Positions 22,340 to 32,814 of a stretch of 37,235 nt of DNA are shown here, piece after piece. The translations under genes were made by a program, and so were the position numbers. The notes below the pieces were generated by a model that worked only from the letters and a program-made list of their open reading frames with translations, did not search any database and was not told where the DNA came from. The stretch comes from Blautia sp. (GTDB taxonomy: Bacteria; Bacillota; Clostridia; Lachnospirales; Lachnospiraceae): NCBI GenBank assembly GCA_029257775.1, contig JARIAQ010000030.1, positions 1 through 37,235 on the forward strand, given 5' to 3'. The number at the start of each line of letters is the position of its first letter. The first letter of the stretch is position 1.

Positions 22340-23371
22340 TTACCACATTCCCAAAAAATGCTGCATAATCAATGTCACTGCTGTGATTCCTATCCAACAA
22401 GCCATTCCCATTAAAATAGGCTTTCCTCCGCTTTTTACCAATTTTACAACATCTGTATGAAACCCAATGGCCCCCATAGCCATAACAATAAAAAACTTCG
22501 AAATTTCTTTAAGCGGCTGAAAACTTTCAATTGGAACTCCTGCTGCAACAGCAACTGTAGTAATGATGCTTGCTCCAATGAAAAACAAGATAAAAAATGG
22601 AAAGACTTTTTTTAAAGATACCGTGCCTCCACTTTGATTTTCCTCTTTTCTTGCTCTATTTATTGCCAGTACAAGAGTAATTGGAATAATTGCCAATGTT
22701 CTAGTTAATTTTACTGTAACTGCTTTATCTAAAGTCTGACTGCCTAACTGATACATGTTATCCCAAGTAGAGGCTGCTGCCGTTACAGAAGATGTGTCAT
22801 TTACTGCAGTACCTGCAAAAATTCCAAATGCCTCACCTGAATGTGTGGAAAATCCAATTGCTGCTCCCATAGCAGGAAAAATCAGCGCTGCCAAAATATT
22901 AAAAAGAAAAATAACTGAAATCGCCTGTGCTACTTCCTCATCATCTGCATCAATGACTGGTGCCGTTGCAGCAATTGCTGAACCGCCACAAATGGAAGAT
23001 CCTACACCTACCAATGTAGAAATTTTTTCTGGAATATTCATCACTTTGTGAAGTACAAATGAAATTACCAGAGATGTCGTAATCGTACATACGATAATAG
23101 GAAGCGATTGTTTTCCTGTTTCCATAACAACTTCCAAATTCATTCCAAATCCCAGCAGTACAACTGCATATTGAAGAATTTTTTTTGAAGTATATTTTAC
23201 TCCCCCTTCAAAAGAATCCTTCTTTTTGATAATCTGAGCAAAAATCATTCCTATAACAATGGCAAATACCGGTCCTCCAATAACAGGAAGCAATCTTCCT
23301 AAAATACACGCAGGAATTGCAAATACTAAACATAATAAAAGTCCTTTTCCATTTTTTGCTAAAAAATTCAT
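22340..23371 (-). CDS. YeiH family putative sulfate/sulfite exporter
   Basis: Integral membrane protein of 343 residues with about ten helices, of the UPF0324/YeiH family named putative sulfate exporter. Motifs: [15 protein letters not shown], the conserved [18 protein letters not shown], and [17 protein letters not shown]. The ATG at 23371 is chosen for GGGAGG 5 bases upstream; the frame extends 15 codons earlier into the flavoprotein gene. It starts 10 bases after that gene and is co-transcribed with it. A divergent LysR gene completes an arrangement like enterobacterial yeiE-yeiH, where YeiE responds to sulfite (family knowledge). The true substrate is unproven. Confidence 0.87.
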
Positions 23372-23381
23372 CTCATCCTCC

Positions 23382-24278
23382 CTACATCGCTGCGTGAATA
23401 GCTGCAATTGTTCCATCAGAAACTGCTGTAGATACCTGACGAATTTTCTTCACACGGATATCACCTATTGCATAAACACCTGCTATTTCTGTTTCCATAT
23501 TTTCATTTACCGGTATAAAACCGTTATCCAATTTTAACTCTGTATATATATCTGTATTTGGAAGAGTTCCAGCATACACAAAAACCCCACATCCCGGATC
23601 TGCAATCGTCTCAATTGCTCCTGTTTTTTCATCAGAAAATTCTAATGATTCCACGTTATCTACCCCATATACTCCATGAAGTCTTGTATTTAATCGAACT
23701 TTAATATTCGGTGTTTTTATAACTTTTTCTTTGAATTCCGAAATACATCCTAAGCTTTCCTCAAAATGTACAATTGTTACCTCTGAGGCATATTTTGCTA
23801 AATATAGAGCCTCTTTTACTGCTCCGTCTGCGCCCCCTATTACATAAACATTTTTTCCTTGATATTGTCTTGCATCTCGTGCAGCATTCATTCCAAACCC
23901 TTTTCCGAACAGCTGTTTTTCCCCTTCAATATTTAGTTTTCTTGGAGATGTACCATTCGCTAAAATTATCTTTGGTGCTAAATACTCATGCTCATTTGTA
24001 CAAACCTTCTTAATTTCCCCTTTAAGTTCCACACGAACCACATCTTCTTTAATAATTTCTACACCAGCATTCTCTGCCTGAGTCTTTAGCTTTTCTGCGA
24101 AGATATATCCTGTTTCCCCTTTAGACACCCCAACATAATGTGTCACTGTAGATACCTTCCCAATTAATCCTCCCACTTGGTTCTTTTCCAGAATTAATGC
24201 TTTCTTTCCTCTGCTTGCTGCATAAATTCCTGCACTAATACCTGCAGGTCCTGCTCCAATAATAATAATGTCGTACAT
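23382..24278 (-). CDS. Thioredoxin-reductase-like FAD/NAD(P) flavoprotein without CxxC
   Basis: Flavin oxidoreductase of 298 residues from the ATG at 24278, chosen for GGAGGAGAAGAG directly upstream. FAD motif [20 protein letters not shown] (about 4-23), NAD(P) motif [13 protein letters not shown] (about 145-157), C-terminal FAD motif [11 protein letters not shown]. Where thioredoxin reductase has its CATC active site, near residue 130-138, this protein reads [12 protein letters not shown]. Only three scattered cysteines occur, none in a CxxC. It therefore cannot work as a standard disulfide reductase; a ferredoxin/flavodoxin or other NAD(P)H-linked reductase is more likely. First gene of the unit with yeiH. 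Confidence 0.88.
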
Positions 24279-24314
24279 CTCTTCTCCTCCATTTTCTCTG
24301 TTTTCTACATTTTT

Positions 24315-24343
24315 ACTATAATCCCATTTTATCATTTTGTAAA
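24315..24343 (-). promoter_or_regulatory. Predicted promoter of the flavoprotein-yeiH unit
   Basis: TTTACA (24343-24338), 17 bases, TATAGT (24320-24315) on the minus strand. The -35 lies 10 bases from the -35 of the divergent lysR promoter, so one LysR-bound site could control both. Confidence 0.65.
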
Positions 24344-24353
24344 ATTATAAATA

Positions 24354-24382
24354 TTGATATTTCGATAAGAATTTGTTATAAT
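24354..24382 (+). promoter_or_regulatory. Predicted promoter of the LysR gene
   Basis: TTGATA (24354-24359), 17 bases, TATAAT (24377-24382). Start point near 24389; GGGGGA precedes the ATG at 24420. Confidence 0.78.
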
Positions 24383-24419
24383 AAACCTATCAAATTTAAT
24401 TTTATGGGGGACTTTTATT

Positions 24420-25304
24420 ATGTTAGATTTTCGTATGGAAACATTTTTAACAGTATGTGAATATATGAATTTTACCCATGCTGCTGAAAAATTAAACCTG
24501 ACACAACCTGCTGTATCTCAGCATATTAAACACCTAGAAGAAGAATATGACTCGCCTCTATTTATTCGAGAGAAGAAAAAACTACTTCTTACTCCAGCAG
24601 GAGAAATTCTTAAATCAGCTTTAGAAACTATGAGGAATGATCAAAACACCATAAAAAAGCGCATGAAAGAAAGTATTACTTCAAAAAAAGTATTGACTTT
24701 TGGTGTAACTATGACAATTGGTGAGTATAGTATTGTCCCTGCTTTAACAAAATTTATTCAAAACCATTCCGATACAAACTTTCATATTCGATATGGAAAT
24801 ACTAAAAAACTGCTATCCCTTCTTAGTGAAGGACTCATTGATTTTGCCATTGTTGAAGGATATTTTAAAGATGATTATTACCAAACTCGCATATTTAAAT
24901 CAGAAGAATATATTGCTGTAGCATCTAAAGACCATATTTTCAAAAAAAAGATTCAGGGAGTACGCGATTTAACTTCTGAATGCCTGCTAATCCGAGAGCC
25001 GGGGTCAGGGACTAGAGATATCCTTACCAAAACCCTTGCTTTAAAGAATATGTCCATTCATAACTTCCCCCATATTATAGAAATAGAAAATATACACACT
25101 CTGGTCTCCTTGCTACGTCATGACTGTGGTATCTCATTTTTATATAAGGCTGCTGTAGAAAAAGAAATTGCTGATGGTACATTAAAACAAATTCCTTTAA
25201 CAGATTTTATGATTATGCATGACTTTACCTTTCTCTGGAATAAAGACAGCATCTTTTCAGAGGAATACGAAAATATTTTTCAAGAACTTCAAAAATTTTC
25301 TTAA
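24420..25304 (+). CDS. LysR family transcriptional regulator (CysL/YeiE-like by context)
   Basis: Regulator of 294 residues. The N-terminal HTH covers about 3-62, with FTHAAEKLNLTQPAVSQHIK. A linker helix and a periplasmic-binding-like effector domain (about 90-290) follow, including the conserved REPGSGTRD stretch. It is divergent from the flavoprotein-yeiH unit with back-to-back promoters, the usual LysR layout for an adjacent target. The context suggests a sulfur oxyanion or cysteine-related effector, as for CysL and YeiE; the sequence alone does not show this. A two-way terminator follows. Confidence 0.9.
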   Translation: MLDFRMETFLTVCEYMNFTHAAEKLNLTQPAVSQHIKHLEEEYDSPLFIREKKKLLLTPAGEILKSALETMRNDQNTIKKRMKESITSKKVLTFGVTMTIGEYSIVPALTKFIQNHSDTNFHIRYGNTKKLLSLLSEGLIDFAIVEGYFKDDYYQTRIFKSEEYIAVASKDHIFKKKIQGVRDLTSECLLIREPGSGTRDILTKTLALKNMSIHNFPHIIEIENIHTLVSLLRHDCGISFLYKAAVEKEIADGTLKQIPLTDFMIMHDFTFLWNKDSIFSEEYENIFQELQKFS

Positions 25305-25308
25305 ATTA

Positions 25309-25352
25309 AAAAAACTGTGTCACTAAGCTTCCCTTTTGTGACACAGTTTTTT
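25309..25352. terminator. Bidirectional intrinsic terminator
   Basis: Perfect 15-bp arms (AAAAAACTGTGTCAC at 25309-25323 and complement at 25338-25352) with A-run and T-run on either side, between convergent lysR and the CoA-disulfide-reductase fusion. Good in both directions. Confidence 0.92.
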
Positions 25353-25369
25353 CTAACTATTTATTTATT

Positions 25370-27952
25370 TTAGCAAGTTGCTCCGCCTTTTAAGTGCTTT
25401 TGAGCTTTAATATTTTCTTCTTTTCTACTTAATAAATCATCTGCAAGAAGCTGTTTCTGAACATTTTCAAAACCTAATCTCGCTACAGTATCTGCAAAAC
25501 GTTCGCCTGTAATTCCCTGTTCTCTAAACAAGAGAATTGCTTTTTCTACAATGGAAAGTACTTCTTCTTTGTCTGTGAAGATTTTTTCTAAATAATGTCC
25601 CTGAGCAACTTTTTTGCCCCAACGTCCGCCAATATAGATACGATATCCATTTGTATAACTTTCAAATGCATGAAATGGACATTTGCCTATACAACGACCA
25701 CAGTGGTTACACATATCTTCATCAATAGAAATTTTGCCATCTACAACTTTTGCAACATTAATTGGACAGTTCTTTTCTACACGGCAAATTGCACATCCAT
25801 GGCATTTTTCCATATCTATTTGAGGAATTCTCTGTCCGATAATACCCAAATCATTTAAGTCTGGTTTCACACAGTTATTTGGACATCCACCTACAGCAAT
25901 TTTGAATTTATGTGGTAATTTTACATCTGCATAACCATGGAAAAATCTCTCATGTATTTCTTCTGACAAAGCAAAAGTATCAATCAAACCATATTGACAT
26001 GTTGTACCTTTACAAGATACAACTGGACGAACTTTTGATCCGGTTCCACCTGTCTCCAGTCCTGCCTGCATCAAATATTCTCGTAATGGTTCAATATTAT
26101 CAAATGGTACTCCTTGGATTTCCATTGTCAATCGAGAAGTCATGGTAACTTCACCACTTCCAAAAAGTTCTGCTGCTTCTCCGATTGTTTTTGCTTCCTC
26201 TGCTGTGATTTTTCCATTTCTTGTAATTACACGACCATTGAATTTATCTAATGTAGTTTTATCTTTTAAAAATCCCCATGCTTTTACTCTTGTTTCTTCT
26301 TCTGGAGACACTGCACTTTCTACATTTTCAACTTTTACATCATTGAAGAACAACGCACCTTCCAATACTTCTGTGTGTTTGTATCCGTAGAAACGCATAC
26401 GGTTCTGAAGGAAATATCCACGTTTTCCTTTTGCACATACAAGAAGAATTTTATCCTCTTTATCTAATCCTTCAATTTCACCCTGGACTTTAGACAGATC
26501 CACATAAACTGCACCTCTAATAGATGGTTTCAATCCAACATCAACTACTTTATAGTCTTTTGCTTTTCCTTCTGCATATTCTGCCGGTGTCATGCTGACA
26601 ATATCTCCGTTAATTTTATTAAGTAAGATATATACAACCTGTACCAATGGATGGATGGATGTAGAGAATGGTGGTGCATAAGCAAAATCTGCATTTTCAA
26701 AATCTTCTAAAACAGCTCCCATATTAATTCCCATAGCTGCAATATCAACCATTTTATCTACTGCTCCTGGTCCGAAAACCTGCATTCCAAGCAACTTATG
26801 TGTTTCTCTATCTGCAATCAGTTTTGTGATAAAAAATTCAGAATCTGGATAATAATGTGCTTTATCATCTGTTGGAGCAAGAACTGTAACAACATTGTAT
26901 CCTGCTGCTTTGGCCTGTTCTTCTGTCAAACCAGTACGTCCTACATTTAATCCAGGTAATTTTACAACTCCTGTTCCTAATACCCCCGGATATGTTTTCT
27001 TAGTTCCTGTCAGAATCTGAGCCAATGTTCTTCCTTCCATATTAGCTGAAGATCCCATTGGAGACCACTGTGGCTTTCCTGTAATACGGCTTCTAACCAT
27101 TACACAGTCACCTGCTGCATATACATCTTCTAAATTTGTCTTCATGGTATTATCTACCATAATAGTACCTTTAAACATTTCCATTCCTGTATCTTTAAGG
27201 AAATCTGTATTTGGACGAATTCCTGCTGCTGTAATCAACAAATCACATGTTAACAATCCTGCTGAAGTCTTTACTCCTGTCACTTTTCCATCACCAAGTA
27301 CAGCTTCTGCTTTTGTTCCAGTTATAACACGAATTCCTTCTTTAAGAAGATGTTTCTTTGCATAATTTGCCATTTCTTTATCCAAAATGTTTGGTAAAAC
27401 TTGATTTGCAAAATCAATTACAGTTACCTGAATTCCCTTTGCTTTCAAGTTTTCTGCAACTTCTAAGCCTATAAATCCAGCACCAATAACAACTGCTTTT
27501 TTTACCTGATTTTCTTCTGCATAAGCACGAATACTGGTAGCATCATCCGGTGTACGCATTTGAAAAACACCTTTCTGATTTACGCCCTCGATTGGAAGTT
27601 TTGCAGGAGATGCACCTACAGCTATTACCAGCTTATCGTAGGTATACACTTCTTCTTCCCCTGATACGGTATCTTTTACCTTAACTTCTTTTTTATCTGC
27701 ATCAAGAGCAATGGCTTCTTTTCCTGTCTTTACTTCAACACCTGTAAGTCCTGAATATTTTTCTGGTGTATTTACAATCAATTCATCACGACTTTCAATT
27801 AATCCCCCTACATAATAAGGAAGTCCGCAGCCCGCATAAGAAATATCTTTATCTTTTGTAATTACAGTAACTTCTACACTTCTATCTTCTCTTTTTAATT
27901 TAGCTGCTGTCTTTGTTCCTGCAGCAACTCCTCCAATAATTAATACTCTCAT
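25370..27952 (-). CDS. CoA-disulfide reductase / rhodanese / siroheme reductase / ferredoxin fusion
   Basis: An 860-residue multidomain redox enzyme. Order: FAD/NAD(P)H disulfide oxidoreductase (about 1-450) with IIGGVAAGTKTAAK and a single active Cys42 (YAGCGLPYY), as in CoA-disulfide and persulfide reductases; rhodanese (about 455-545) with a CAKGKR loop near 505; nitrite/sulfite-reductase half domain (about 560-710) with CKGTTC near 647 and GCPNNC near 689, followed by PDLNDLGI as in the siroheme/4Fe-4S signature; two 4Fe-4S motifs (CHGCAIC, CNHCGRC; about 715-750); helical tail. The first cysteine pair is C-x4-C where many relatives have C-x5-C. Likely NADH-driven reduction of persulfide, polysulfide or sulfite (inference). 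Start at 27952 after GGGAG; 42 bases after DUF134. Confidence 0.9.
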   Translation of the reverse strand: MRVLIIGGVAAGTKTAAKLKREDRSVEVTVITKDKDISYAGCGLPYYVGGLIESRDELIVNTPEKYSGLTGVEVKTGKEAIALDADKKEVKVKDTVSGEEEVYTYDKLVIAVGASPAKLPIEGVNQKGVFQMRTPDDATSIRAYAEENQVKKAVVIGAGFIGLEVAENLKAKGIQVTVIDFANQVLPNILDKEMANYAKKHLLKEGIRVITGTKAEAVLGDGKVTGVKTSAGLLTCDLLITAAGIRPNTDFLKDTGMEMFKGTIMVDNTMKTNLEDVYAAGDCVMVRSRITGKPQWSPMGSSANMEGRTLAQILTGTKKTYPGVLGTGVVKLPGLNVGRTGLTEEQAKAAGYNVVTVLAPTDDKAHYYPDSEFFITKLIADRETHKLLGMQVFGPGAVDKMVDIAAMGINMGAVLEDFENADFAYAPPFSTSIHPLVQVVYILLNKINGDIVSMTPAEYAEGKAKDYKVVDVGLKPSIRGAVYVDLSKVQGEIEGLDKEDKILLVCAKGKRGYFLQNRMRFYGYKHTEVLEGALFFNDVKVENVESAVSPEEETRVKAWGFLKDKTTLDKFNGRVITRNGKITAEEAKTIGEAAELFGSGEVTMTSRLTMEIQGVPFDNIEPLREYLMQAGLETGGTGSKVRPVVSCKGTTCQYGLIDTFALSEEIHERFFHGYADVKLPHKFKIAVGGCPNNCVKPDLNDLGIIGQRIPQIDMEKCHGCAICRVEKNCPINVAKVVDGKISIDEDMCNHCGRCIGKCPFHAFESYTNGYRIYIGGRWGKKVAQGHYLEKIFTDKEEVLSIVEKAILLFREQGITGERFADTVARLGFENVQKQLLADDLLSRKEENIKAQKHLKGGATC

Positions 27953-27994
27953 ATTTATTTCTCCCATTCTTCTTTTAACTGGTATTCTAAATTA

Positions 27995-28357
27995 TCAAAG
28001 TTTCTCTGCTCCATTTTCCATCCTTTTGTGGCAGCAATGTTCCTCTCCTACACATTCGGGACGCATCTTTTCACATACAATTACATCACCTCCACTGATT
28101 GTCAGTCTATATCCATTTACCAGCGCATCTGCCATTTTCTGTCTAGCTCCATCGTAAATTCGAGTCACTGTCGGACGGGAAATGTTCATTTTTGCCGCAC
28201 ACTGTTCCTGTGTCAACTTTACATAATCTAAAAGACGAATTACTTCGTACTCATCATAAGTAAGATTTAAAGTTCCAGCTTCGGGACATCCCTGTGGCAA
28301 AAATCCAGTGATTTTTGGTTTTGAACAGATACATCTGAGTTTCTGAGGCCGGGCCAT
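27995..28357 (-). CDS. DUF134 family HTH regulator, cysteine-rich
   Basis: A 120-residue DNA-binding protein of the DUF134 family. N-terminal MARPQKLRCICSKP, a stretch GFLPQGCPEAG, then sigma-70 region 4-like HTH (LTQEQCAAKMNISRPTVTRI) and a short C-terminus with CEKMRPECVGEEHCCHKRM. At least eight cysteines plus a histidine give it the look of a metal or Fe-S/thiol sensor; that is inference. AGGAGG precedes the ATG. It heads the operon with the redox fusion, so it probably controls that gene. DUF134 genes often sit beside Fe-S and redox proteins (general knowledge). Confidence 0.88.
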   Translation of the reverse strand: MARPQKLRCICSKPKITGFLPQGCPEAGTLNLTYDEYEVIRLLDYVKLTQEQCAAKMNISRPTVTRIYDGARQKMADALVNGYRLTISGGDVIVCEKMRPECVGEEHCCHKRMENGAEKL

Positions 28358-28413: not shown

Positions 28414-28442
28414 AACATACTCTGATTTTAAACATATGTCAA
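28414..28442 (-). promoter_or_regulatory. Predicted promoter of the DUF134-redox fusion operon
   Basis: TTGACA (28442-28437), 17 bases, TATGTT (28419-28414) on the minus strand. The -35 overlaps the palindrome ACATATGT (28432-28439). Confidence 0.7.
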
Positions 28443-28501
28443 TATTCTTTAAGGCCTTTTACAATAACACTTTTTAATGGTATCTTCGAAAAATTTTTAT
28501 G

Positions 28502-28530
28502 TTGACAATCAAAATAAGATGCCATATAAT
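28502..28530 (+). promoter_or_regulatory. Consensus promoter of the marR-FUSC operon
   Basis: TTGACA (28502-28507), exactly 17 bases, TATAAT (28525-28530): a full sigma-A consensus. Such a strong promoter normally needs repression. Confidence 0.88.
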
Positions 28531-28542
28531 TAACCCTGTTAA
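28530..28542. promoter_or_regulatory. Candidate MarR operator at the start point
   Basis: TTAACCCTGTTAA has perfect 5-bp arms around a 3-base centre. It touches the -10 box and covers the expected start near 28537; a further TTTGTTAA follows. Binding by the encoded MarR protein would shut off the promoter. Confidence 0.55.
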
Positions 28543-28564
28543 TTTGTTAAGGAGATTTTTATTT

Positions 28565-29008
28565 ATGAAAGAAATAGACTGGTTGCAAATGATTGTATAC
28601 CATCAAGAATTACATCGCTTTTCGCGAACATTATTAACTCAAGAACAAACCCCGTCTTTAACTTCCAGTGAGCGGGAACTTTTGGCTCGACTTTATTTAG
28701 AACCTCTGGACAATACACCTTTGGCTTTAAGCCGAAGTAGTGGAATGAAAAAGGAAGCAGTAAGTCGATGCTTAAAAAAATTGTGTGAAAAAAATTGCAT
28801 TCAAAAAACAAAACATCCTCAAGATGAACGTAGTTACATTCTTTCTCTTACCTCACTGGGTGAAATGGAACTTCGAAAAGATTACGAGGCAATTCTCCAG
28901 CCGCTTTATGATTTATGGCGAAATATGGGAGATGAATTTGAAACACTTTTACATCTGATCTGTAAAGCAAATAAACAGACAGATGATGATTATAAAGGAG
29001 GTATTTAA
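28565..29008 (+). CDS. MarR family transcriptional regulator
   Basis: Repressor of 147 residues with the MarR winged helix: TSSERELLARLYLEP, recognition region SRSSGMKKEAVSRCLKKL, and a wing with HPQDERSYILSLT. The ATG at 28565 follows AAGGAG by 10 bases; the frame is open 22 codons earlier through the promoter, so that longer form is not possible from the predicted transcript. The FUSC gene starts 3 bases after its stop. This is the standard layout of a ligand-responsive exporter operon. Confidence 0.9.
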   Translation: MKEIDWLQMIVYHQELHRFSRTLLTQEQTPSLTSSERELLARLYLEPLDNTPLALSRSSGMKKEAVSRCLKKLCEKNCIQKTKHPQDERSYILSLTSLGEMELRKDYEAILQPLYDLWRNMGDEFETLLHLICKANKQTDDDYKGGI

Positions 29009-29011
29009 TTT

Positions 29012-30097
29012 ATGCGTTTTTATGATGCATTACAACTAGATCCAGCAGTTTTAAAACCACAAATACGCACTGCTGAAACTTCATCTGAAAAGAGGAAACT
29101 TCAAATCGCATTAGTATTAAGATCTACATTAATCGTTGCATTTGCTATCTTATTTATTTCCTCTCTTTCTAAAGTATTTGGTACAGAAAATACACCAATG
29201 TGTGTAGCAATGTTTTGTATATTACTTGGACTCCGATTTGTTGACTTTGGCTACTGTATTAAAGATTCTCTTGTAAACCTAGCTGTAGTATTTCTAATTT
29301 TACTTGTAGCTCCAGTAGTAGCCTCTTTTGCCAATCCTGTCTTGGCAATTATCATTCATTTTGCTGCATTTTTAACACTTCTTCTCATGACCAGTGATAA
29401 ACCAGAATTGGGAAATGGTGGACTATGTGGATTTTCTTATGTATATCTTACTGGAAATCCGGTAACAGGAGAAAGTTTCCTAAAGCGTTGTCTTTTAACT
29501 CTATTCTTATTTCTATTATATAGTATTATTTTTTATGTAAAGCATCATGCAAAACATACCAACGTTCGTTTCCAAGACATTATTAAAAATTTTGACTTAT
29601 CTAATGAAAAAAGTCGCTGGCAACTTCGAATGGCAATTGGTGTCAGCCTTGTACTAACTCTGGGGAACTTTTTTCATATACAACGTTTTATGTGGGCAGG
29701 ATTTGCCTGTGCTTCCTTGCTGTCAACTTATCCATATGCTGTAAACGTAAAAGAACGTCTTTTTCATCGTATGATTGGTGTAATTACAGGTTCTCTCCTA
29801 TTTTTAGTTGTTTACAAAATAACCCCTGAATCCTACCATACATTATTAGGTCCTTTAGGAGGATTTTGTCTGGGATTTGCCTCTGATTATCGAGTTAAAA
29901 CTGCTTTGAACTGCTTTGGTGCACTGGCTTTAGCAGCTGGCTTGTATGGAATTGAAGGTGCAGTGCTTCTACGTATTTTAAATAATTTTATGGGTGTATT
30001 ATTTGGATATGCCTTTATACTTTTATATCGCCACTGTGTAGATAAACACTTCGAAGATGATAATGAAAATTTTGGAGAAACTTCTGCAGAATTTTAA
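29012..30097 (+). CDS. FUSC family membrane protein (putative exporter)
   Basis: Membrane protein of 361 residues with two sets of hydrophobic helices (about 30-155 and 205-345) separated by a hydrophilic stretch, as in the FUSC/aromatic-acid exporter group. HIQRFMWAGFACASLL and KERLFHRMIGVITGSLLFL are typical of the family's second half. AAAGGAGG precedes the ATG inside the end of marR, so the two are coupled. The substrate is unknown; relatives export aromatic acids or other amphipathic compounds. Confidence 0.83.
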   Translation: MRFYDALQLDPAVLKPQIRTAETSSEKRKLQIALVLRSTLIVAFAILFISSLSKVFGTENTPMCVAMFCILLGLRFVDFGYCIKDSLVNLAVVFLILLVAPVVASFANPVLAIIIHFAAFLTLLLMTSDKPELGNGGLCGFSYVYLTGNPVTGESFLKRCLLTLFLFLLYSIIFYVKHHAKHTNVRFQDIIKNFDLSNEKSRWQLRMAIGVSLVLTLGNFFHIQRFMWAGFACASLLSTYPYAVNVKERLFHRMIGVITGSLLFLVVYKITPESYHTLLGPLGGFCLGFASDYRVKTALNCFGALALAAGLYGIEGAVLLRILNNFMGVLFGYAFILLYRHCVDKHFEDDNENFGETSAEF

Positions 30098-30190: not shown

Positions 30191-31300
30191 TTATACACCG
30201 AGAAATTCAAGAATTTCCTGCTTTGTCCAATGATTAAATCCCATTTTAGCTAAAGTACGTCCTGTTTTACGATAATCTTCATTATTATACATACTTGCCA
30301 GAGTAATCAATGCTTCTGCCGCTGGAACTTCAACACCACAAATTTTAGCCAGTTCACAAAATGGAACAAACAAATATGGAATATCTTCTGTAATGTATCT
30401 TGTTTTTGCATTTGCAGGGGCATTTTTTATTTTTCCATGAGCACTAGAACCTCGATTAAATTCATAAATAGAAGAACAATCACTTGCATAAAGGGCGTTC
30501 ATCGCTTCTAATTCTGTGCGTAAATGCAAATGTAAACTTTCTCCAACTGCTAAACGTTCTTGATCTAGAATATCTTCTACTTTTGCAATTGATGGCGAAC
30601 AACAATCACGATAGAAATTATATCCACCTTCAAAGTTTTCTAATAATCCCATATTTAAAATTGTAAAGAGGGGATGTGCTCCAAAATTAATATTTTCTAA
30701 AGCTGCCACTAAAGGATTGTCCAAAATTTCAACAGGAATAGGGAAAATTTCTTTCACAAATTTAATCATCTCTTCTGTGCGTTTCACTTTTGGAAAAATG
30801 CTTAAAGGCATAAACTCTTTCGCACCCATAATAGAAATAACTCCAGCATCCACAGCACGAGTAGCCCATGGCAAACTAATGGTATCAATAAAAGTAATAT
30901 CGGTTCCACGTTTATCTGAATTTTGTACCATTTTATTCAATACAAGTCCGCCATAATTTCCAGGAACAATAAAAATTTTCATTCCATCTTTAATATAGGG
31001 AAGCATGGTAGAAAACATAATTTCTTGTGCAAAAGACGGACATACCATCATAAAAGTATCCGCAAATCCCATGGCTTCTTCAATATCCGTTGTAGCTAAA
31101 CTAATTGCTTCAAATCCAGGAAACAGCATCTTAGCCCCATTATCCTCTGGCAGGGCCTTAATTCCACCCTTTTCTTTAATTGCATTTACCTGTGCAGGAA
31201 ATTTCGGTGAATCATAAATACAAACCTCATTTCCACTACCTGCTAAAACATACGCTGCAGTAAGACCACCATTTCCAGCTCCAATCACAGTAATTCTCAT
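30191..31300 (-). CDS. NAD/NADP octopine/nopaline dehydrogenase family protein
   Basis: Oxidoreductase of 369 residues. N-terminal Rossmann domain with GAGNGGLTAAYVLAGSG (7-23), and a helical C-terminal domain of the opine dehydrogenase family with NFGAHPLFTILNMGLLE carrying the likely catalytic His. Family enzymes reductively condense an amino acid with a 2-oxo acid, or run the reverse. The substrate pair here is unknown. GGAGG precedes the ATG by 9 bases. It starts 29 bases after the YfcC-type transporter and is surely co-transcribed, which points to import or export of an amino acid or opine (inference). Confidence 0.88.
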   Translation of the reverse strand: MRITVIGAGNGGLTAAYVLAGSGNEVCIYDSPKFPAQVNAIKEKGGIKALPEDNGAKMLFPGFEAISLATTDIEEAMGFADTFMMVCPSFAQEIMFSTMLPYIKDGMKIFIVPGNYGGLVLNKMVQNSDKRGTDITFIDTISLPWATRAVDAGVISIMGAKEFMPLSIFPKVKRTEEMIKFVKEIFPIPVEILDNPLVAALENINFGAHPLFTILNMGLLENFEGGYNFYRDCCSPSIAKVEDILDQERLAVGESLHLHLRTELEAMNALYASDCSSIYEFNRGSSAHGKIKNAPANAKTRYITEDIPYLFVPFCELAKICGVEVPAAEALITLASMYNNEDYRKTGRTLAKMGFNHWTKQEILEFLGV

Positions 31301-31329
31301 CTTTCATTTCCTCCATTTCTTTTAAATAA

Positions 31330-32814
31330 TTATAAAAATGCACATCCAACCGTAAGAACAATGCAAGTAATCACAATAATTCCAAAGAAAAACGGTAATA
31401 TATGTTTTAACCATCTTTCGTATGGGATATTGGCAAGTGTTAAAGCTCCAATCAACACAGCCTGTGTAGGAGAAATAAAATTCATGGTTTCACTTCCCGC
31501 CTGACATGCCATGACAATAAATTCACGTCCTACATTCAAAAAATCTCCTAATGGCGCTAAAATTGGAATCGTTGCAGTATGTAATCCTGAAGAAGACGGG
31601 ATTAACAATGACATGGGAATATATAAGATATATGCAATTGCAGGAAATACAACACCTGAAATATTAGACAATAGTATTTCTCCATAATGCAAAATCGTAT
31701 CTATAATTAATCCTCCACTCATAATAACGGATAATCCTTTTGCAACTCCCAAAATCAATGCCACACTTAAAATATCTTTTGCCCCATAAATAAAAAGATT
31801 TACAATTTTTTTCTCATTAAATCCATAAACAATTCCTATCAAAATTGCACCCACTAAAAATAACATGGTCATTTCGGTAAAGAACCAATCTCCCAGCGGA
31901 ACCGTATGTCCTAAAATACTACCTACAACAGGAATACCTAATAAGAATTCATGAAAATTCTCAAAAATATGAATGCCAAACTTACTTCCCCATGGAATAA
32001 TTGCAATAATCATCAATAAAAACATACCTCCAAAAATTGCAATTACTTTTTTTCGTTTCGAAGTAAACTCTACAATTTCATCATCATTATTTTTTTCAAA
32101 GGGCGCATTTGTAATATGCCTAATATCATACACAATTGATTTGGTAGGATCTTTTCGAACTTTTTCTGCATATCGCATAACAAAAAAAACTGCAAATGCA
32201 AAACATGCTAAAAATAAAACACTTCTTGTAAGAATACCGTCTCCTAATGAAATATCTGCAAGATTTGACCCAATTCCCACAGAAAATGGATTAGAAATAC
32301 CTCCTACGATTCCAACTCCAGCTCCTAAAAATACCACCATAATACCTGTTACAACATCATAACCCGCCGCTAAAAGAACAGGGATTAGTATGGGATAAAA
32401 TGCAATGGTTTCTTCTGCCATACCATAGGTTGTTCCACCAATTGCACAAATTCCCATTACAATTGGTATTAATACTTTTTCCCTTCCTTTCAGCCTTACA
32501 ACTACTTTAGAAAGAGCTGCATCAATGGCTTTCGTTTCAAATAAAACACCTAAACATCCACCTAAAACCAATACAAACAGAATAATATCAATAGCACCTC
32601 TAAATCCTTCTATTGGCGCATTTAATACATCCCATATTCCCTGGGGATTTGACTCTACAACTTTGTAAGTTCCTGCCACAGGCATTCCGTCCTTATATTC
32701 ATACTGACCAGCTGGTATTATAAATGTTAGGACTGCAACCACAATAGTCAGTATAATAATGGTCGTAAATGAGGTAGGCATTTGAAACTTTTTACGTTTT
32801 TTCTTTTCGTTCAT
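31330..32814 (-). CDS. YfcC family (ArcD/DcuC-like) transporter
   Basis: Membrane transporter of 494 residues with about twelve helices. Typical features: FQMPTSFTTIIILTIVVAVL then TFIIPAGQYEY, GTTYGMAEETIAFYPILIPV, GGISNPFSVGIGSN and, near the end, LLIPSSSGLHTATIPILAPL. Family members are annotated as basic amino acid antiporters or C4-dicarboxylate carriers. AAGGAGG precedes the ATG. It heads the operon with the opine-type dehydrogenase and is divergent from a two-component system, which is the likely controller. Confidence 0.87.
   Translation of the reverse strand: MNEKKKRKKFQMPTSFTTIIILTIVVAVLTFIIPAGQYEYKDGMPVAGTYKVVESNPQGIWDVLNAPIEGFRGAIDIILFVLVLGGCLGVLFETKAIDAALSKVVVRLKGREKVLIPIVMGICAIGGTTYGMAEETIAFYPILIPVLLAAGYDVVTGIMVVFLGAGVGIVGGISNPFSVGIGSNLADISLGDGILTRSVLFLACFAFAVFFVMRYAEKVRKDPTKSIVYDIRHITNAPFEKNNDDEIVEFTSKRKKVIAIFGGMFLLMIIAIIPWGSKFGIHIFENFHEFLLGIPVVGSILGHTVPLGDWFFTEMTMLFLVGAILIGIVYGFNEKKIVNLFIYGAKDILSVALILGVAKGLSVIMSGGLIIDTILHYGEILLSNISGVVFPAIAYILYIPMSLLIPSSSGLHTATIPILAPLGDFLNVGREFIVMACQAGSETMNFISPTQAVLIGALTLANIPYERWLKHILPFFFGIIVITCIVLTVGCAFL

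Follow-up and report, generated by a model that had tools for sequence, protein, structure and literature searches.

A Blautia locus that may couple a putative YeiH-family sulfite exporter to a siroheme reductase fused with a persulfide reductase module

In Salmonella, YeiE binds sulfite and activates yeiH, which is reported to be the main sulfite-resistance factor, by a mode of action that the study leaves open (PMC12880088). Among siroheme enzymes, FsrI and DsrA carry four basic sulfite-binding residues, and FsrII, which takes nitrite with F420H2, is described as lacking the second of the four (PMC9295563). There is a recent dispute over whether the product that such reductases release is sulfide or zero-valent sulfur, and the assimilatory siroheme reductases are reported to give off zero-valent sulfur (S0) first (PMC13188885). 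Here, we describe a locus from a Blautia-type genome (2.23 Mb, 99.87% complete), analysed within a window of 37,235 nt, the whole stretch of DNA studied. We judge it evenly balanced whether this locus handles sulfite through export by YeiH and through reduction by a fused enzyme via a persulfide relay, the two arms being separately regulated.

Five genes make up the locus, as the first-pass annotation had listed them, and both open reading frames and profile searches agree. On the minus strand, a DUF134 regulator gene (27995..28357; PF02001, 88 bits) is the first gene of an operon whose second gene (25370..27967) encodes an 865-residue fusion of a CoA-disulfide/persulfide reductase (CoADR), a rhodanese and a siroheme sulfite reductase with two [4Fe-4S] motifs. 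A second minus-strand operon encodes a thioredoxin-reductase-like FAD protein devoid of CxxC, here called FLAVO (23382..24278; called ORF start 24335), and a YeiH-family membrane protein of 343 aa, the presumed exporter (22340..23371; PF03601; called ORF start 23416). A LysR-type regulator gene on the plus strand (24420..25304), identified by profile searches, is divergent from FLAVO and convergent with the fusion. The divergence of LysR from an exporter–flavoprotein unit, and a DUF134-led operon whose second gene combines CoADR, rhodanese, siroheme reductase and ferredoxin parts, had both been claimed beforehand; ORFs and profiles confirm the former and profiles the latter. The two operons had also been thought to face each other, which is incorrect, since they lie in tandem on the minus strand; the gene that faces the fusion is LysR alone. 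A strong hairpin with A/T flanks (25309..25352; −20.1 kcal/mol, z −6.5) lies between these two genes and is likely a bidirectional terminator; it is missing from the consensus scan, its loop being longer than that scan allows. At gathering scores, no Rfam RNA element matched in the 37,235-nt window. Elsewhere in the window, a MarR gene and then a FUSC-type transporter gene lie at 28499-30097; a perfect promoter-like TTGACA-17-TATAAT site at 28502-28530 falls inside the called MarR ORF, so the true MarR start is probably further in. An octopine-dehydrogenase-like gene and a DcuC/YfcC-type transporter gene stand in tandem at 30191-32814.

The N half of the fusion (residues 6-543) is an Npsr-type CoADR-rhodanese by profile and structure search, a fold that includes Cys47 and Cys511. 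Its CoADR module spans residues 6-440 (26648..27952, minus strand) with the active-site Cys47 in 39/39 aligned sequences, and the rhodanese domain covers about residues 455-545 (26333..26605, minus strand), where Cys511 is accompanied by a loop that is basic at 513 and 515 in 39/39 and carries Arg516 in 36/39. The siroheme/NIR_SIR domain with its inserted 2x[4Fe-4S] segment occupies about residues 579-840 (25448..26233, minus strand), as placed by profile and Fsr alignment. This half was judged by sequence profile, where it matches Fsr at E 1e-42; the Foldseek and VIA matches listed all fall to the CoADR part. Aligned to Fsr, the siroheme-coupled [4Fe-4S] set is present as Cys652, 657, 695 and 699 (Cx4C, then Cx3C) in 39/39, as are the peripheral and additional [4Fe-4S] motifs (Cys722, 725, 728, 734, 753, 756, 759 and 763). 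The sulfite-binding basic residues Arg612, Arg647, Lys687 and Lys689, placed by eye on the Fsr alignment, are likewise found in 39/39. We infer from this residue set that the siroheme centre of the fusion reduces sulfite. Membership in AsrC (TIGR02912, 102.8 bits; cut-off 324.1) and in NirB (TIGR02374, 235.9 bits; cut-off 578.35) was ruled out. An AlphaFold2 monomer model of the fusion, built from 39 sequences, has a mean pLDDT of 85.3 and a pTM of 0.71.

The chain ends in GGATC (residues 861-865; 25373..25387, minus strand), with Cys865 as the last residue in 39/39. DsrC-type carriers have two conserved cysteines in a C-terminal arm; the fusion lacks such a two-cysteine arm, Cys865 being its only invariant cysteine beyond residue 763. 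In the AlphaFold2 model, the last five residues have a mean pLDDT of 36, and the tail is not the sole loose part, as residues 642-644 and 653-656, both stretches of the siroheme site, and 784-789 also fall below 50. We read the tail as a mobile arm that would work with the thiol-redox module.

A terminal cysteine of the GGATC kind was present in 89 of 96 reductase loci in a first comparison; the seven lacking it are five solo reductases, L053, whose frame is broken, and L015, which a contig end cuts short. In the full comparison of 136 loci (141 reductase rows minus five that are near-identical or short), with GGATC, GGASC or GGAKC counted as a tail, the tail and the CoADR/rhodanese module are both present in 104 and both missing in 26, four loci have the tail only, one has the module only (L053) and one is unreadable (L015). 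Among the tail-only loci, L183 lies at a contig edge where the end of a CoADR module is visible, L094 and L184 carry another redox domain (PF09719) in front, and L188 is a true exception, a solo reductase with the tail. This C_GCAxxG_C_C domain is fused to a tailed reductase by profile at L094:3698-5083 and L102:8587-9948, and by reading only in the minus-strand reductase ORF of L184. Because the tail-less rows were partly picked for a short match, their proportion should not be read as an estimate: 20 of the 23 family matches that stop short of the reductase end were fetched, G180 was added separately, and G081 and G342 were left out. L012, the same place as L029, was left out of the reductase comparisons. 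A quick reductase tree was built from rows trimmed at 305 residues, which removes the tail from most of them; on it, the fewest changes needed are 14 for the tail and 16 for the module, and five independent pairs on starred branches agree 4.1 times on average and oppose 0 times. The sign test on such pairs is not significant (median p 0.125; it cannot reach 0.05), and many branches are weak. The pattern suggests that the terminal cysteine may be evolutionarily tied to the CoADR/rhodanese module.

The exporter candidate matches PF03601 at 257.4 bits against a cut-off of 24.5, placing it in the family, and scores 141.7 bits with TIGR00698, under the subfamily cut-off of 232.6. Its true start is probably 23371, where a GGGAGG Shine–Dalgarno motif precedes the ATG and several homologues are likewise 343 aa long, and that of FLAVO is probably 24278, where GGAGGAGAAGAG precedes the ATG, rather than the called ORF starts. 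The CxxC redox centre of thioredoxin reductase is absent from 23/23 aligned FLAVO proteins, that of the window included. FLAVO and YeiH co-occur in 13 of 21 FLAVO genomes against 5.4 expected (p 0.0003), and FLAVO as a partner of the reductase was ruled out, the two being together in 5/21 against 4.7 expected. The YeiH-FLAVO pair is also present in G447 (L219). Of 20 other FLAVO loci fetched, some on short contigs, 17 have no adjoining YeiH; L125, L132 and L134-L148 hold CxxC-less flavoprotein relatives of this kind. By analogy with its relatives, YeiH may transport sulfite as an exporter.

For the effector domain of LysR, the best solved chain is 8sbf, an unnamed LysR regulator, followed by 8sbh, named YeiE, with which it has the stretches TIGxY, GN[TS], [IV]EG and RE.GSGTR in common. 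The whole protein scores 118.8 bits with the YeiE equivalog NF040889, under its cut-off of 480. A 44-bp conserved block in the LysR/FLAVO gap (24339..24382, minus strand), the presumed LysR binding region, emerged from intergenic comparison and is kept in six genomes or loci (the window, L011, L013, L130, L131 and L133). It is single-copy in this genome; at three mismatches or fewer, G000, G001, G004 and G017 have one site each and the other 16 of the 20 genus genomes none, and a reversed-pattern control matched 0 times in all 20. Consensus scans place a sigma-70-like promoter of FLAVO-yeiH (TTTACA-17 nt-TATAGT) at 24315..24343 on the minus strand, a position kept in all six intergenic regions compared, and a promoter-like site for LysR (TTGATA-17 nt-TATAAT, 11/12) within the block at 24354..24382 on the plus strand. 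The window's copy of the LysR inverted repeat has diverged further, so the form present in the relatives has no match in the window at three mismatches.

Beyond its HTH/Pfam domain, the DUF134 regulator has a conserved C-x6-C-x5-CC cluster; in 37 sequences, Cys11, 53, 95 and 108 are kept in 37, Cys102 in 36 and Cys109 in 34. This cluster is perhaps a metal, thiol or sulfur sensor. The promoter of the DUF134-fusion operon lies at 28442-28414 by consensus scan, and a conserved upstream motif, the putative operator TTGACATATGTTTAAAA (28426..28442, minus strand), covers its −35 box. Among 36 DUF134 upstream regions, one further region of 8 bases being left out, 33 are within two mismatches of TTGACATATGTTCATAA, many of these loci being close kin, and letter-shuffled regions never came under three mismatches. 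At one mismatch or fewer, 28426-28442 is the sole operator of this type in the genome; a second match in the window at three mismatches is within chance. Across the 20 genus genomes, 16 real matches were obtained against 9 for a reversed-pattern control, so chance may account for the matches in genomes that lack this operon. The DUF134 gene stands ahead of 34/71 fused, 1/35 split and 2/30 solo reductase genes, and thus belongs mainly to the fused form. The block at LysR and the operator at DUF134 are unlike each other, and either is present once in the genome, so the two operons seem to be separately switched and shared regulation is not supported. The first-pass annotation had treated them as two arms of one system; a single regulated unit finds no support, given the different operators, the tandem layout, a linkage seen in only 4/20 genus genomes and a joint presence of reductase and YeiH no higher than chance.

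Those four (G000, G001, G004 and G017) have LysR-FLAVO-YeiH beside the fused gene; in G017 a contig break intervenes, and the assignment there covers FLAVO and YeiH. Of the 20 genus genomes, 7 encode the reductase as a fusion and 12 as two neighbouring genes, and G015 (76% complete) lacks it; the remaining three with a fused gene have neither YeiH nor a close FLAVO. The split form of the 12 genomes (L017-L028) has a divergent, different LysR gene and is followed by DapF-like and MATE genes. Wider searches covered a family set of 397 genomes, taken to be Lachnospiraceae, and the rest of the class, scoring the best few candidates per genome, so that counts are lower bounds. In the family set, the reductase (E 1e-90) occurs in at least 89/397 genomes and PF03601 in at least 102/397. 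At E 1e-70, the reductase occurs in at least 50/341 class genomes; outside the family set, the class yielded 49 reductase genomes, of which at least 14 have PF03601 and five have it directly downstream, the YeiH match being partial in G622 and the matched stretch containing stops in G419.

The two operons could be unrelated neighbours whose linkage in Blautia is chance, the fusion serving redox disposal without an exporter, and the joint presence of reductase and PF03601 in 20/397 scored family genomes, not above the chance level of 22.9 (p 0.49), speaks for this reading. So do the separate operators, the presence of YeiH near only 3/71 fused rows and the occurrence of LysR-FLAVO-YeiH without a neighbouring reductase in three other genera (L130, L131 and L133). 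Gene order points the other way. YeiH adjoins the reductase in 7 of the 20 family genomes with both, namely the window and six with YeiH 3′ on the same strand, and overall in 12/34 genomes with both (11/33 minus the window), against about 0.05 expected if YeiH were placed anywhere among 3000 genes, a rough figure that takes no account of shared descent. In 11 of the 12 adjacent cases, YeiH is the next gene downstream and has the same orientation. On a 53-row YeiH tree (without L215, of 180 aa, and L225; L226 and L227 gave no YeiH match), the linkage needs three changes, at least two of them forced by starred branches, and by this tree YeiH-reductase linkage arose at least twice. One deep 13-row clade holds 12 linked members, and the YeiH of the window lies in another clade. 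With adjacency in 12/34 and two or more origins, we regard unrelated neighbours as improbable. A lack of co-occurrence in relatives had been named as an outcome refuting the proposal; judged by linkage, the proposal is thus not refuted, and judged by mere presence it would be. The link of exporter and reductase to sulfite, also claimed at the outset, is supported by the recurrent adjacency with its multiple origins, the Fsr-like residues, the YeiE-like effector domain and the role in sulfite resistance that the Salmonella study gives YeiE/YeiH (PMC12880088).

Other neighbours recur as well. Genes for a periplasmic-binding/FecCD/ATPase ABC transporter adjoin the fusion downstream in L067, L077, L082, L085 and L086, and the same set lies upstream and divergent in L075. 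A NifX-like protein (PF02579) is encoded just before the fusion gene at L052:435-941 and in L059, L063, L066 and L072, and a DUF134-NifX fusion protein lies near a YeiH gene at L201:6787-7560. In G531, an Npsr-type gene clusters within 6 kb with those for YeiH, LysR and DUF134, and the reductase gene is some 9 kb away.

If the locus does handle sulfite, LysR would sense sulfite or a related small anion and switch on FLAVO-yeiH, and YeiH, judging from its relatives, would expel sulfite as a safety valve. DUF134 would independently control the fusion by binding the operator over its own promoter. The siroheme-[4Fe-4S] centre, given its ligands and substrate residues, would reduce sulfite with electrons arriving through two ferredoxin-type clusters, as proposed for Fsr. 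Sulfur would leave the siroheme, in part or entirely, at the zero-valent level, to be caught by Cys865 as a persulfide and passed to rhodanese Cys511 or to CoA, and the NAD(P)H-dependent CoADR module would then release sulfide. The case for this persulfide relay is drawn from the evolutionary tie of the tail to the CoADR module: should the fusion too release S0 first, the step after it would be expected to fall to a persulfide reductase, with Cys865 as the obvious carrier. A single chain with a built-in sulfur relay, its swinging C-terminal cysteine joining the ferredoxin-driven and NAD(P)H-driven halves of sulfite reduction, is a tentative proposal that we consider less likely than not. As to the source of the sulfite, PF01507 (CysD/CysH family) has no match in this genome (G000), the same search being positive in 14/14 control genomes. 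Without such a protein, ordinary sulfate assimilation is unlikely, and sulfite probably comes from outside or from thiosulfate; outside sources would be food, the host or neighbours. A profile finds the siroheme synthase N-domain in this genome, and TIGR01470 serves B12 synthesis too, a point against the sulfite reading.

The same fusion could instead act as a one-chain thiosulfate reductase, in which the rhodanese splits thiosulfate, the CoADR reduces the sulfane sulfur with NAD(P)H, the siroheme centre takes the freed sulfite and YeiH vents the excess. This would explain why rhodanese and siroheme domains are joined, and a rhodanese with a sulfite reductase is reported as a thiosulfate route in Halanaerobium (PMC5497025). 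The loop residues at 513 and 515, basic in 39/39, are I/S and L in two aligned Npsr-type chains, and a basic loop fits an anionic donor. We still consider this rather unlikely, as on its own it leaves the C-terminal cysteine unexplained, and reductases without a rhodanese exist, 26/136 rows having neither module nor tail. Thiosulfate cleavage and sulfur relay may both take place at once. Nitrite is a further candidate substrate, with the fusion an ammonifying reductase in the fashion of NirB whose FAD module feeds the siroheme centre. The two modules are ordered as in NirB and TIGR02374 does match, and nearly all characterised sulfite reductases are reported to reduce nitrite too (PMC9295563). 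That match is under the NirB cut-off, however (235.9 against 578.35 bits), all four sulfite-binding basic residues are present and the reductase is linked to YeiH genes, which makes an ammonifying role very doubtful.

In the open-access literature, searched at listing level, no description of the fusion or its tail was found; within that literature, the parts are known, and the combination and the tail appear to be new. Sulfite is a food preservative, and this reductase family is widespread in Clostridia, including many that their record titles place in the gut, so it bears on the origin of gut sulfide and on how anaerobes cope with sulfite. The linkage to YeiH is evidence from genomes, independent of the enterobacterial studies, for a role of YeiH proteins in handling sulfite. 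As the reductase is joined to a persulfide reductase and its terminal cysteine is kept or lost with it, the dispute over the released sulfur species becomes testable by one point mutant.

Set against described systems, the LysR and YeiH genes resemble Salmonella YeiE-YeiH in their divergent arrangement and effector-domain similarity (PMC12880088). They differ in that both proteins score under the curated cut-offs, FLAVO lies between the promoter and yeiH, and a sulfite reductase operon adjoins. The fusion is like Npsr/CoADR-RHD of Archaeoglobus, Shewanella, Bacillus and Enterococcus in the fold of residues 6-543 with Cys47 and Cys511, and unlike it in being fused to a sulfite reductase and in its basic rhodanese loop. 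With Fsr and Group III Dsr-LP, it shares siroheme-[4Fe-4S], peripheral and additional [4Fe-4S] motifs and the four basic residues, and with Fsr also a flavoprotein module fused N-terminally to the reductase (PMC9295563, PMC3448663). Unlike Fsr, its N half is a CoADR-rhodanese in place of the F420H2 dehydrogenase/oxidase half, and it has the GGATC tail. The DsrC/DsrAB/DsrMK system is similar as an idea, in that a cysteine carrier brings sulfur from the siroheme centre of one reductase to another reductase by way of a DsrC-trisulfide (PMC10504309). In the fusion, the carrier would be the tail of the same protein, with one cysteine and no membrane complex; if the relay is true, the enzyme would be a single-chain, soluble counterpart of DsrAB-DsrC-DsrMK.
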